From Rhodospirillaceae bacterium (GTDB lineage: Bacteria > Pseudomonadota > Alphaproteobacteria > GCA-2731375), in assembly GCA_018660265.1 (NCBI GenBank), contig JABJKS010000054.1, forward strand, positions 1 through 33,955: 33,955 bases of DNA. Direction: 5' to 3'. The notes beneath the pieces are model-generated. The model was not told the DNA's origin. It saw nothing but the letters and a program-made list of their open reading frames with translations, and made no database searches. Below, in pieces: positions 7,871 to 13,914 of the stretch; positions within the stretch are counted from its first letter, which is position 1, and every line of letters starts with the position of its first letter. Position numbers and translations under genes: made by a program.

Positions 7871-8638
7871 CTAAGCTACAAGATGTTCCAGAATGTTGCC
7901 GTCGGGATCAAAGCAGGTTGCCTGCAAGGGGCCGTCGACGCTGGTTCCGGCATCGATGTTAATGCTGTGGGAGGTCGTCCGCATGCCTTTATGGGCGGCA
8001 TCAAAGCCACGGACGACAAAGCCAAAAGATTCAAATGGCGTCGCCATGGCCTCAAATCCGGCAGCGTTCCACCAAAAGGCATCATTTTGTTTCTCCAGCG
8101 GCCTCGTCATATCAATGCCCGCGCTGACGAATAGCAGTTTACCGTTCGAAGTCGGTGCGGCCGAGGCGAGGCCGTGGAGGAATTCATAATGGCCCGGGTG
8201 ATCTTGAAATTTTTCCCGGACTTCAGTGGTCCAGCGGGTGGTGACAACCACGCCGGCGCGGAATTTTGAGTGTGCGTCCTTGGCCTCGCCGCCATAGGCC
8301 CGTAGGGTCGCTTCGACACCGTGGGCCATCATCCATTGAAAGGTTTCTATGGGTCGCATGGCCCACTGGATTTCCAACAGCTTGACCCACATTTCCTCCT
8401 GCGCGCCACGCAGGTGGGTGACCTGGATGCCAGGAAGGTCTTTACGAAAGCGCAACAGCTCGTCAATGGTATCGACGACCTTGCTGCCATAACCCATATA
8501 ATTGCCCAGATAGACCAAGCAGTCGCCGGGCTGCAGCTTTTCCGCCAGTCCCGCGTGCAAGGCGCACAAAGCATCTGCCTGGCCGAGAATGGCAGGCACA
8601 GCCCAGATGCGTTGTGTGGCATTCAACGTAATCAGCAT
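7871..8638 (-). CDS. metallophosphatase-fold pseudoenzyme (metal ligands lost)
   Basis: A 255-residue protein that tracks the calcineurin-like Ser/Thr phosphatase layout but lacks its metal site. GDIHG is replaced by PAILG (residues 15-19), GDYVDRG by GNYMGYG (45-51) and LRGNHE by LRGAQE (76-81). VHAGID becomes VSAGID, and the final His motif (GHT) is gone, although INIDAGTSVDG remains. Length and motif order are otherwise normal and the frame is intact, so it reads as a conserved non-catalytic relative rather than a decaying gene. A binding or regulatory role is inferred. Its TAG stop lies in GCTCTA, the same hexamer that ends the palindromic repeats. Confidence 0.7.
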   Translation of the reverse strand: MLITLNATQRIWAVPAILGQADALCALHAGLAEKLQPGDCLVYLGNYMGYGSKVVDTIDELLRFRKDLPGIQVTHLRGAQEEMWVKLLEIQWAMRPIETFQWMMAHGVEATLRAYGGEAKDAHSKFRAGVVVTTRWTTEVREKFQDHPGHYEFLHGLASAAPTSNGKLLFVSAGIDMTRPLEKQNDAFWWNAAGFEAMATPFESFGFVVRGFDAAHKGMRTTSHSINIDAGTSVDGPLQATCFDPDGNILEHLVA

Positions 8639-8775: not shown

Positions 8776-9582
8776 ATGACGGACCTACAATTTGGCGTGG
8801 TCGGCTGTGCCGGCCGGATGGGCATTAATGTGCTGCGGCAAATCGCGGGCACTAATGGCTGTGCCATTACCGGCGGCAGTGAGCGGCCGGGACATGAAGC
8901 GATTGGCCGGGATTTGGGTGAGCTGGCGGGCCTGGAACATCTGGGTCTGGCGGTGGAAGGTGACCCACGGGAAATGTTCGAACGGGCATCCGTGGTGCTG
9001 GATTTCACTATGCCTGCCGCGACCCTGGCGCACGCCGCTTTGGCGATTGAGACCAAGACCAATCTGGTCATCGGCACCACGGGGATGACGGCGGCTGATG
9101 ATGCGGCAATCGCCCAGGCGGCGGAAAAAATCGCCATTATGCGCGAAGGCAATATGAGCCTGGGCGTCAATGTTCTGGCGCAGTTGACCAAGCAGATGGC
9201 CAGAATGCTGGACGATGATTTCGATATCGAAGTGGTTGAGATGCACCACCGCTATAAGGTTGATGCACCGTCCGGGACGGCGCTGATTTTGGGCCGGGCC
9301 GCCGCGATAGGCCGGGGCGTGGATCATGACGCGGTCGCCATAGGTGGCCGTTATGGCATTACCGGTGAAAGGCGCAAGGGCGACATCGGTTATGCCTCCC
9401 TACGGGGCGGCAATGTGGCGGGCGAGCATACGATTGTTTTTGCCGCCGATGATGAGCGGCTGGAGCTGACCCATAAGGCGACGGACCGGGCGATTTTTGC
9501 CCGTGGCGGTGTCCGTGCGGCCCGCTGGCTGGCGGACAAGGAACCCGGGCTGTATGGCATGGCCGATGTACTGGGGCTGTAA
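8776..9582 (+). CDS. dapB: 4-hydroxy-tetrahydrodipicolinate reductase
   Basis: DapB reduces 4-hydroxy-tetrahydrodipicolinate with NAD(P)H in the diaminopimelate/lysine pathway in the cytosol. The 268 residues match the family length. Residues 10-16 (GCAGRMG) are the nucleotide-binding loop. EMHHRYKVDAPSGTA carries the catalytic His157 and Lys161, equivalent to E. coli His159 and Lys163. FTMPAATL and GTTGM are also conserved. GGGAGGG sits about 6 bases before the ATG. It ends one base before the convergent DUF2244 gene. Confidence 0.96.
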   Translation: MTDLQFGVVGCAGRMGINVLRQIAGTNGCAITGGSERPGHEAIGRDLGELAGLEHLGLAVEGDPREMFERASVVLDFTMPAATLAHAALAIETKTNLVIGTTGMTAADDAAIAQAAEKIAIMREGNMSLGVNVLAQLTKQMARMLDDDFDIEVVEMHHRYKVDAPSGTALILGRAAAIGRGVDHDAVAIGGRYGITGERRKGDIGYASLRGGNVAGEHTIVFAADDERLELTHKATDRAIFARGGVRAARWLADKEPGLYGMADVLGL

Positions 9583-10881: not shown

Positions 10882-13800
10882 ATGACGCGTGGAGTGCCTG
10901 TCAAGATAGCCATCATTGCGATATTCATCGCCGTATTCATTGCCGTAATCATATTTGCCCTTGATCTTGCTCTACCCGCTGGCGTGGCTGGCGGTGTCCC
11001 ATATGTTCTGGTCATATTACTGGGAATATGGTTGCCAAGCCCTCGCTATGTCATTGGCCTGGCCTTGATCTGCACTGTCTTGACCATCCTTGGCTATCTG
11101 CTATCGCCCGCAGGGGGCGTTGCTTGGATGGAACTTGCCAATCGGGGACTGGCGCTGGTTGTGATCTGGATCAGCGCGTCTTTGATACTTCAGCTATTAG
11201 GCAAAGATCAATCGCTAGGGCAAAGCAATACCCATTTCGACGACCTGATCAAAGGTTCGGTGCAAGGCGTCCTCATTCACCGAAATTTTAAGCCACTCCA
11301 GGTCAATCAGACCTGGGTCGAGATATTTGGTTTCTCTTCGGCAGATGAAGTTCTTGCCCTGGACAGCATCCTCGAGCTGTTTCCCAGTGATGTGCAGAAG
11401 GAATTTCAAGGTTACACGGCGGCGCGTCAACGTGGGGAGAGTATTCCTGGCCGCTATGAGAACGAGGCCATTCGGCGTGACGGTAGAACCATATGGCTCG
11501 AAAGCATTGCACGTGAGGTCGATTGGGCCGGCGAACCCGCCATACAGGCTGTGGTCACCGACATTACGGAGAAGAAGAGAATCGAAGACGAGCTTTTGCA
11601 TAACCAAGAATATCTAGAGGCGACAGTCGCGGAACGGACGCGGGAACTGCATCTGATCACTGAAAATTTGCCTGTCACGATCACGCGCCTGGATATGGAA
11701 TCGCGATACCTCTTCGTCAACCAGCAAGCGGAACAGTGGTTCAATCAAGGTGCGGACCAAATTCTGGGGAAGACAGTTAGAGACGTGCTTGGAGAAGCCG
11801 CCCATGAAACATTGACGTCCTCACTCAACCAGGCTTTCGCTGGAGAGCTGGAAACCGTTGAGGAGGAGGTGACATATCCAGATGGTATCACGCGTTTTGT
11901 TGAATTATCCTACGTGCCCGATACTGACCTCGACGGAAACGTCCAGGGGCTCTTTGGTCTGGCCGTCGATGTCACTCAGCGCAAATTGGTGGAAATAGAA
12001 AGCAAGGAAAACGCAAGGCGGTTCCGCGATTTTTCCGAAACGGCGTCCGACTGGTCCTGGGAGATGGATGCGGACCTACGGTTCACTTATATGTCGGATT
12101 CATTTGCCGAAGTTTTTGGCCGGCCTGCCGAGACGTCCATGGGCAAAACGAGAGAGGATATCTATTTCGAGATTATCGATTCCAGCACACCGGAAGAAAA
12201 GCAAAAATGGCATCAGCACTTCGCCGACCTTAGGGCCCGCCGGCCATTTAGAAATTTCACCCAGCGCTGGACGACACCGGCGGGCGAAACTCGATTTATC
12301 CTCAATAGTGGTAAGCCTTATTTCGACAGGAGCGGTAATTTTGCCGGCTATCGAGGAACCGGATCCAACATTACCGAAAGCGTGCTGGCCGACCAGGCGC
12401 TGCATGAGACCGCAGAACAACTTCGTCTGCTAACCAATGCCTTGCCGGTCGCAATCATATATGTCGATACAGGGGGCCGTTATCAATTCGCCAACCAGAT
12501 GGCGGAAGATTTGGTCAACCTGCCGGATGGCAGCATCGTTGGCCGGGATCAACGCGAGGTCCTGGGTGATGAGATGTACCGGCCTTTAGAGCCTTACGTC
12601 CAGGCCGCGCTGGCTGGTGAGACACAAAATTTTGAGAACCGGGTAAGCTACCCTGATGGCACCACTAGAGATATGGAATTCACCTATGTGCCACATCTGG
12701 GACCGCAGGCTGGGGTTTTAGGTTATTTTACCTTGGGTGTGGATGCCACCGAAAGGCACGCATTGGAAGAACGTGTTCGGCAAGCGCAAAAGATGGAGGT
12801 TGTAGGTCAGCTCACTGGTGGCATCGCCCATGAATTCAACAATTTACTGCAGGTTGTCGCCGGCAATGTCTCATTATTGCAGGACGATGCTCCGCCCGCG
12901 TCGGACACTGGCCGGCAACTTGAGGCGATTGACCGGAATGTGACGCGTGGGGCCGAACTAACCGACCGCCTGCTGTCGTTTTCGCGCAAACAGCCTCTGG
13001 CGCCAAGAATGCTGGACATCGATAAGACACTGACGGAGATGCGGGGCCTGCTGGGGCAGACCCTGGGCGAGACGATTGAGGTAAAGGTCGAACTAACAGC
13101 TGATATCTGGGCAGCGGAGGCCGACGCCGGTCAGTTGGAGAATGCCCTGCTGAATTTGGCGCTGAATGCCCGTGATGCGATGCCGGGCGGCGGCCTCATC
13201 AAACTCTCCGCCGAAAACGCCTCGCTCGACGAGCAGACGGCTGCGATGCACGAGGGGGTGGTCCCAGGTGACTACGTAGTGCTGAGCGTGACAGATACCG
13301 GCAGCGGCATGACACAGGAGGACATCAGCCATGCCTTTGAGCCGTTCTTCACCACCAAGGATGTCGGCAAAGGCACCGGGCTTGGCCTCAGTATGGTTTA
13401 TGGTTTCGCCCAGCAGTCGGGGGGCTTTGCCAAAATCGAAAGTACGGTAGGACAAGGCACGACCATGTACTTGTATCTGCCCCGAATGGCGCAAGCCGAG
13501 GGCGCTGCTGCTGTTGCCCCGGCTACGCGCCCGGACACTGCGTCGAGAGGTAACGGCACCATTCTTCTGGTGGAGGATAATATGGATGTCCGGCAGTCGT
13601 TGGGCGGCCAGCTCATGAGCCTCGGTTACCGGGTGATTGAGGCGGAAGATGGCTCTGGTGCACTGTCGGTACTGTCTAATGGGCCCCAGATCGATCTATT
13701 GTTCACGGATGTCGTCATGCCTGGTGGGATGAGCGGCATCGAGTTGGCGCGTCGTGTATTGCTGCATTGGCCTAACCTGAAAATTCTCTATACCACCGGT

Positions 13801-13914
13801 TACGCCGAGGATATCGTTGCCAAAGCAGGAACATTGCAAGATGACGCCATCATGCTGCGCAAACCCTACGACAAAATCCAACTCGCCGCAGCGATTGCGC
13901 AAATACTAAAATGA
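10882..13914 (+). CDS. hybrid sensor histidine kinase with four PAS domains
   Basis: A 1010-residue inner-membrane hybrid kinase. Four hydrophobic segments (about 8-28, 36-52, 57-74 and 88-106) form a short membrane module, followed by four PAS/PAC units (about 118-235, 257-370, 378-505 and 514-630). The dimerisation domain has His650 in GGIAHEFNN. The ATPase domain shows NLALNARDAMPGG, DTGSGM and GKGTGLGLS. The C-terminal receiver (about 892-1010) has Asp943 in LLFTDVVMPGG and the conserved Lys in LRKPY. PAS2 and PAS4 share wording (LPVxIxxxD, then YPDGxTRxxE), pointing to internal duplication. AAGGAT lies upstream of the ATG. No partner regulator is in the window, so the signal and output are unknown. 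Confidence 0.92.
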   Translation: MTRGVPVKIAIIAIFIAVFIAVIIFALDLALPAGVAGGVPYVLVILLGIWLPSPRYVIGLALICTVLTILGYLLSPAGGVAWMELANRGLALVVIWISASLILQLLGKDQSLGQSNTHFDDLIKGSVQGVLIHRNFKPLQVNQTWVEIFGFSSADEVLALDSILELFPSDVQKEFQGYTAARQRGESIPGRYENEAIRRDGRTIWLESIAREVDWAGEPAIQAVVTDITEKKRIEDELLHNQEYLEATVAERTRELHLITENLPVTITRLDMESRYLFVNQQAEQWFNQGADQILGKTVRDVLGEAAHETLTSSLNQAFAGELETVEEEVTYPDGITRFVELSYVPDTDLDGNVQGLFGLAVDVTQRKLVEIESKENARRFRDFSETASDWSWEMDADLRFTYMSDSFAEVFGRPAETSMGKTREDIYFEIIDSSTPEEKQKWHQHFADLRARRPFRNFTQRWTTPAGETRFILNSGKPYFDRSGNFAGYRGTGSNITESVLADQALHETAEQLRLLTNALPVAIIYVDTGGRYQFANQMAEDLVNLPDGSIVGRDQREVLGDEMYRPLEPYVQAALAGETQNFENRVSYPDGTTRDMEFTYVPHLGPQAGVLGYFTLGVDATERHALEERVRQAQKMEVVGQLTGGIAHEFNNLLQVVAGNVSLLQDDAPPASDTGRQLEAIDRNVTRGAELTDRLLSFSRKQPLAPRMLDIDKTLTEMRGLLGQTLGETIEVKVELTADIWAAEADAGQLENALLNLALNARDAMPGGGLIKLSAENASLDEQTAAMHEGVVPGDYVVLSVTDTGSGMTQEDISHAFEPFFTTKDVGKGTGLGLSMVYGFAQQSGGFAKIESTVGQGTTMYLYLPRMAQAEGAAAVAPATRPDTASRGNGTILLVEDNMDVRQSLGGQLMSLGYRVIEAEDGSGALSVLSNGPQIDLLFTDVVMPGGMSGIELARRVLLHWPNLKILYTTGYAEDIVAKAGTLQDDAIMLRKPYDKIQLAAAIAQILK

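Follow-up and report, generated by a model that had tools for sequence, protein, structure and literature searches.

STYX and the receptor PTP pseudophosphatases are built on the fold of the Cys-based phosphatases, which is unrelated to the PPP fold. According to excerpts of two papers, such inactive phosphatases work by competition, allostery or scaffolding (PMC2175518, PMC10211241), and the idea of a phosphatase without activity is what they have in common with the protein considered here. The same idea has been applied within the PPP family itself, since an excerpt of PMC2175518 deals with kinetoplastid PPP sequences whose catalytic residues are substituted and which were proposed to be inactive; these proteins, however, are eukaryotic and lineage-specific, and all pseudophosphatases described in the excerpts of PMC2175518 and PMC10211241 are eukaryotic. 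Among the matches listed in a literature search that left most subscription papers outside its scope, a bacterial PPP pseudophosphatase did not appear, nor did any phosphoesterase linked to carD, and in a paper on Caulobacter CdnL (PMC5324124) words that start with phosphatase, phosphoesterase or ferredoxin do not occur.

The gene under study lies in the window, by which is meant the whole stretch of 33,955 nucleotides that was analysed, taken from an alphaproteobacterial Rhodospirillaceae bacterium (contig JABJKS010000054.1). The gene and its five former phosphatase motifs are located as follows:

7871..8638, minus strand: pseudophosphatase gene, an open 255-aa frame with a predicted PPP fold and six of six metal ligands replaced
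8582..8596, minus strand: motif 1, residues 15-19, PAILG replacing GDxHG
8486..8506, minus strand: motif 2, residues 45-51, GNYMGYG replacing GDYxDRG
8396..8407, minus strand: motif 3, residues 78-81, GAQE replacing GNHE
8111..8128, minus strand: motif 4, residues 171-176, VSAGID, the intact homologues having VHAG
8000..8011, minus strand: motif 5, residues 210-213, RGFD replacing HGHS/T

The minus-strand frame runs uninterrupted from ATG to stop over 255 aa; the plus strand of the same interval contains stops in the same frame. A natural reference is provided by the window's own genome, which encodes a PPP paralogue with intact motifs (L002:1480-2166, minus strand) that shares 26% identity with the window protein (BLASTP E 7e-11). 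This paralogue has complete GDIHG, GDYIDRG, GNHE, VHAG and HGHS motifs and matches Pfam PF00149 (Metallophos) at 5e-14, whereas the window protein has no Pfam match, PF00149 included, and no match to any NCBIfam family at E 0.1. The metal ligands of PPP enzymes, which we take to be D16, H18, D46, N79, H172 and H212 in the window protein's numbering (two Asp, one Asn and three His), have all been exchanged when compared with L002 (D16 to A, H18 to L, D46 to N, N79 to A, H172 to S and H212 to F), leaving none of the six. Of the residues presumed to be catalytic in active PPP enzymes, the His of GNHE has become Gln, and the Asp and Arg of DRG have become Gly and Tyr, respectively. The first-pass annotation, made from the sequence of the window, had claimed an uninterrupted, full-length phosphatase-fold frame, which is borne out, together with five motif changes that are all present when L002 is used for comparison: GDIHG to PAILG, a second motif turned into GNYMGYG (the L002 counterpart being GDYIDRG), GNHE to GAQE, VHAGID to VSAGID (VHAG to VSAG against L002) and the loss of the last His motif (VHGHS to VRGFD).

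When solved structures were searched with the single sequence of the window protein, no match was obtained at E 1 or lower. An AlphaFold2 model built from an alignment of 110 orthologues reached a mean pLDDT of 95.0 and a pTM of 0.92, and its best solved structural match is 5vjv (Z 21.5, rmsd 3.0 over 222 residues), with 2qjc (Z 19.3, rmsd 2.7, 196 residues) and the lambda phosphatase 1g5b (Z 18.9, rmsd 3.3, 205 residues) also matching. The window protein can thus be confidently predicted to adopt a PPP-type fold, and, as judged from sequence and model together, it fits the definition of a pseudophosphatase, that is, a phosphatase fold without catalytic residues. It is in this last respect that it differs from its structural relatives: 5vjv (Rhizobiales-like phosphatase 2) and 2qjc share the PPP fold but keep GDIHG in their own aligned segments and were deposited under enzyme names, whereas the window protein has no ligands left.

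The 110 distinct orthologues, the window protein included, comprise 42 from 96 whole genomes and 68 further distinct proteins, the latter drawn from the best 80 of 237 loci found in a scan of titled genomes after duplicates had been dropped; three more orthologues (G331, G364 and G375) stand outside this set. In the 96 genomes searched, including the window's own, orthologues were found in 42 at E 6.4e-27 or lower, and 15 weaker matches correspond to second copies or lone homologues; none of these 57 matches contains an internal stop, and each of the 110 orthologues is readable as a single open frame. Beyond the window's own family, 81 families of the class were sampled and 27 of them have the gene. 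It also occurs in all 11 searched genomes of the window's genus and in the related genome G011, and these 12 genomes together are referred to here as the window's lineage. A draw of 299 genomes from the phylum yielded eight orthologues, one of which is the window's own and none of which lies outside the class, plus a ninth match (G227) that is an intact homologue. Magnetospirillum, Paramagnetospirillum, Sneathiella, Telmatospirillum, Terasakiella and Aestuariispira appear in the titles among the best 80 of the 237 relatives, which mark the class as Alphaproteobacteria, and no plasmid-borne relative was found at E 1e-20 with a Paramagnetospirillum member (L080) as query. Nine genomes (G000, G015, G039, G042, G067, G070, G074, G091 and G092) carry both an orthologue and an intact homologue.

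The intact group consists of 16 rows, namely L002, the 14 other weaker matches and L132 from the phylum draw. D16, D46, D49, N79, H80, H210 and H212 are kept in all 16 in the alignment, and a search with motif patterns found the complete set in 14, L183 and L190 each being without one pattern. The Asp of motif 1 and the Asn of motif 3 (residues 16 and 79) are missing in all 110 orthologues; residue 46, the first Asp of motif 2, has become Asn in 95 and is still Asp in 13, and the second Asp (residue 49) is Gly throughout. The Arg of DRG is retained in 24/110, the motif 3 His (residue 80) is Gln in 107/110, while the adjoining Glu81 is retained in every member, and in motif 5 the first His (residue 210) is Arg in 107/110 and the second (residue 212) is retained in four. 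More often preserved are the His of motif 1 (residue 18, 85/110) and that of motif 4 (residue 172, 66/110), neither of which is found in any of the 12 members of the window's lineage. Counted per protein, no ligand is kept in any of these 12, and among the 98 orthologues outside the lineage three ligands are kept in six, two in 60, one in 30 and none in two, so that the maximum is three of six. Five of the six three-ligand members (L067, L079, L082, L083 and L084) show the pattern A-H-D-A-H-S at the six positions, and L067, L079 and L083 belong to Magnetospirillum by title.

A tree was computed from 69 rows, of which 53 are family members out of the 110 and 16 are the intact homologues, L002 among them; the family and the intact homologues form separate groups on it with 100% SH-aLRT. 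Residues such as W102, Y115, H150, E81, Q184 and D229 are common to both. The number of changes between kept and lost that the tree needs is one each for residues 16 and 79, two for residue 46, three for residue 212, five for residue 18 and eleven for residue 172, and these counts point to an early loss of the catalytic site as the most likely course. Since no orthologue keeps more than three of the six ligands, and Asp16 and Asn79 are missing in all, the inactivation appears to be old and family-wide; we infer from the sequences that loss of the metal site goes back to the family's base. The two histidines at positions 18 and 172, still kept by much of the family, were most likely lost repeatedly, both of them being gone in the window's lineage, whose stem, at 0.91, exceeds every other internal branch within the family. 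The coordinated loss of all sites that had been claimed for this gene therefore needs qualification: all six ligands are indeed gone here, but the inactivation would be an old family-wide event rather than one that took place in this gene, with the last two histidines going in addition within the window's lineage.

Selection on the gene was gauged against its divergent neighbour, dapB, which adjoins it in nine of the 12 lineage loci and is not the usual context of the family:

8776..9582, plus strand: dapB (dihydrodipicolinate reductase), divergent neighbour of the pseudophosphatase gene

The 66 pairs among the 12 lineage members have a median dN/dS of 0.126, compared with 0.142 for the 36 pairs of dapB from the nine loci in which it lies alongside, and the nearest pair gives 0.079 against 0.069 for dapB; single values are rough because synonymous distances are large (dS between 1.09 and 2.98 in the 11 pairs involving the window gene). 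The pseudophosphatase gene is under purifying selection in the window's lineage, about as strong as that on dapB. It might be argued that the gene is decaying, given that the longest internal branch of the family leads to this lineage and that both remaining histidines are gone in 12/12 members, but decay is ruled out by the dN/dS values and by the full-length frames in all 12, and can be given hardly any credence. Moreover, the open frames of all 110 orthologues and the core losses common to them make the substitutions more than a matter of chance. Both checks proposed in the first-pass annotation, that is, whether orthologues retain normal metal motifs and whether the substitutions look neutral, thus speak for its pseudophosphatase reading, as normal motifs occur in none of the 110 orthologues and the median over 66 pairs is not that of neutral decay. 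Further along the window, at 10882-13914 on the plus strand, lies a gene for a hybrid histidine kinase of 1010 aa, in which several PAS domains are combined with HisKA, HATPase and a receiver domain.

The explanation that we consider very probable is that the gene product belongs to an old alphaproteobacterial family of PPP-fold pseudophosphatases, non-catalytic and retained for binding. Judging from the substitutions, the protein would be devoid of phosphatase activity, and its conservation without catalytic residues makes a binding role most likely; action by binding instead of catalysis is favoured because the metal site appears lost while the family is kept intact, usually beside carD. According to this explanation, the metal site would have been lost early, at the base of the family, with the PPP fold retained, and the former catalytic cleft, in which the now invariant or near-invariant Gly49, Gln80, Glu81 and Arg210 would be located, may offer a metal-free binding site to a ligand or a protein surface. 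At four positions (12, 49, 80 and 210), the 16 intact homologues share one invariant residue and the family has a different, near-invariant one. Three of these four replacements sit in former active-site motifs, a count (post hoc hypergeometric P 0.011) that agrees with reuse of the cleft; when family-specific conserved residues were tested more broadly for enrichment in the former motifs, the result was not significant (4/16, P 0.20).

Conservation of this kind also bears on whether the protein could still be an enzyme with a different chemistry, working from an active site at a new location or from a non-canonical metal site made up of, for example, Glu81, Glu82, His150, Arg77 and Arg210. 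Eleven polar non-ligand residues (H28, R65, R77, Q80, E81, E82, K86, H150, Q184, D186 and R210) are 97-100% conserved, as such an enzyme would lead one to expect; however, E81, H150 and Q184 are common to the intact homologues, and may for that reason be residues of the fold, and the leading sequence and fold matches are PPP relatives, with no other convincing enzyme family among them, which leaves this alternative improbable. Almost equally unlikely is a narrower form of the binding explanation, in which the protein would sense nucleotides without metal, having descended from a diadenosine polyphosphate hydrolase of the ApaH/PrpE type. Of all NCBIfam models, that for symmetrical bis(5'-nucleosyl)-tetraphosphatase is hit by the most members (45/110 at E 0.1 or lower), the best NCBIfam match of any member being to the ApaH model at 5.2e-7, and 2qjc, a putative diadenosine tetraphosphatase, comes first in both the profile search and Foldseek. 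The window protein itself, though, is not among the proteins so matched at E 0.1, and general PPP ancestry fits the matches equally well, as other phosphatases score similarly or higher. PF00149 is matched by 13/110 family members at E 0.1 or lower, with 8.9e-4 as the best value.

Gene order points to a possible partner. In 91 of the 98 orthologues outside the lineage, a same-strand carD/CdnL gene precedes the pseudophosphatase gene by 2-331 bp (limit 400 bp), and in two further ones carD is found within 1.4 kb; it was not found in the remaining five loci (L042, L072, L074, L107 and L109). In one of these, L107 of Desertibaculum subflavum, the pseudophosphatase gene directly follows fdxA. Near the 98 orthologues there is also fdxA in at least 82 loci, an rpoH-type sigma factor gene in at least 30 and an M48 peptidase gene in at least 28, these counts being lower bounds because the flanks reach at most about 3 kb and are often shorter. 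Pfam confirms the names CarD, ferredoxin, sigma factor and TerB for the copies in the window's genome, and M48 peptidase is a putative name obtained by reading the sequence. The carD-adjacent position was presumably ancestral for the family. No carD was found beside the gene in the 11 genomes of the genus or in G011, and the window's genome has TerB, fdxA, carD and the rpoH-type sigma factor gene in this order on another contig (C54, L165:1709-4730), without the pseudophosphatase gene. In G010, too, carD stands between fdxA and rpoH without it, whereas in G012, from another genus of the window's family, the gene still has carD on one side and rpoH on the other. The most parsimonious course is that it gave up its place beside carD before the window's genus and G011 split. 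In a sub-clade of the genus (G002, G007 and G010), it lies beside neither carD nor dapB in the stretches examined, and in G010 (L047) the frames upstream encode a putative acyl-CoA dehydrogenase and a short-chain dehydrogenase, named from their translations.

A second narrower form of the binding explanation, according to which the protein interacts with or regulates CarD/CdnL and RNA polymerase, draws on this arrangement, with carD upstream in 91/98 and fdxA and rpoH-type genes as recurrent neighbours, and on an excerpt of PMC11034885 that places CdnL of Caulobacter under post-translational control. By gene order, the CarD/CdnL-RNA polymerase system would be the most likely partner, a tentative assignment that we hold to be doubtful, and the carD link may be one of conserved gene order only. 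In 12 genomes without the gene, chosen for a carD-type match, carD is present, with an rpoH-type gene downstream in six, so that CarD does not always need the protein; the window's lineage keeps the gene and loses the linkage, and CarD shows no matching change in rate. On a carD tree (52 of 53 requested rows, L015 being left out), the lineage stem measures 0.24 and is not unusually long, compared with 0.91 for the pseudophosphatase; co-acceleration of CarD with the relocated gene was not seen. The same neighbours without the gene, the broken link and the unchanged rate of CarD all weaken a role at RNA polymerase.

Going further, the family of the carD-rpoH locus might tune RNA polymerase through CarD/CdnL, with a nucleotide or phospho-ligand held in the metal-free cleft and arginines (e.g., Arg77 and Arg210) taking the place of the metal ions, which seems a long shot. 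As a non-catalytic, binding PPP protein, which is the explanation preferred here, the gene would represent a bacterial family that extends to 27 of 81 other sampled families and that, outside the window's lineage, lies mostly beside the gene of a global RNA polymerase regulator, with cultured relatives such as Magnetospirillum and Sneathiella carrying a member.
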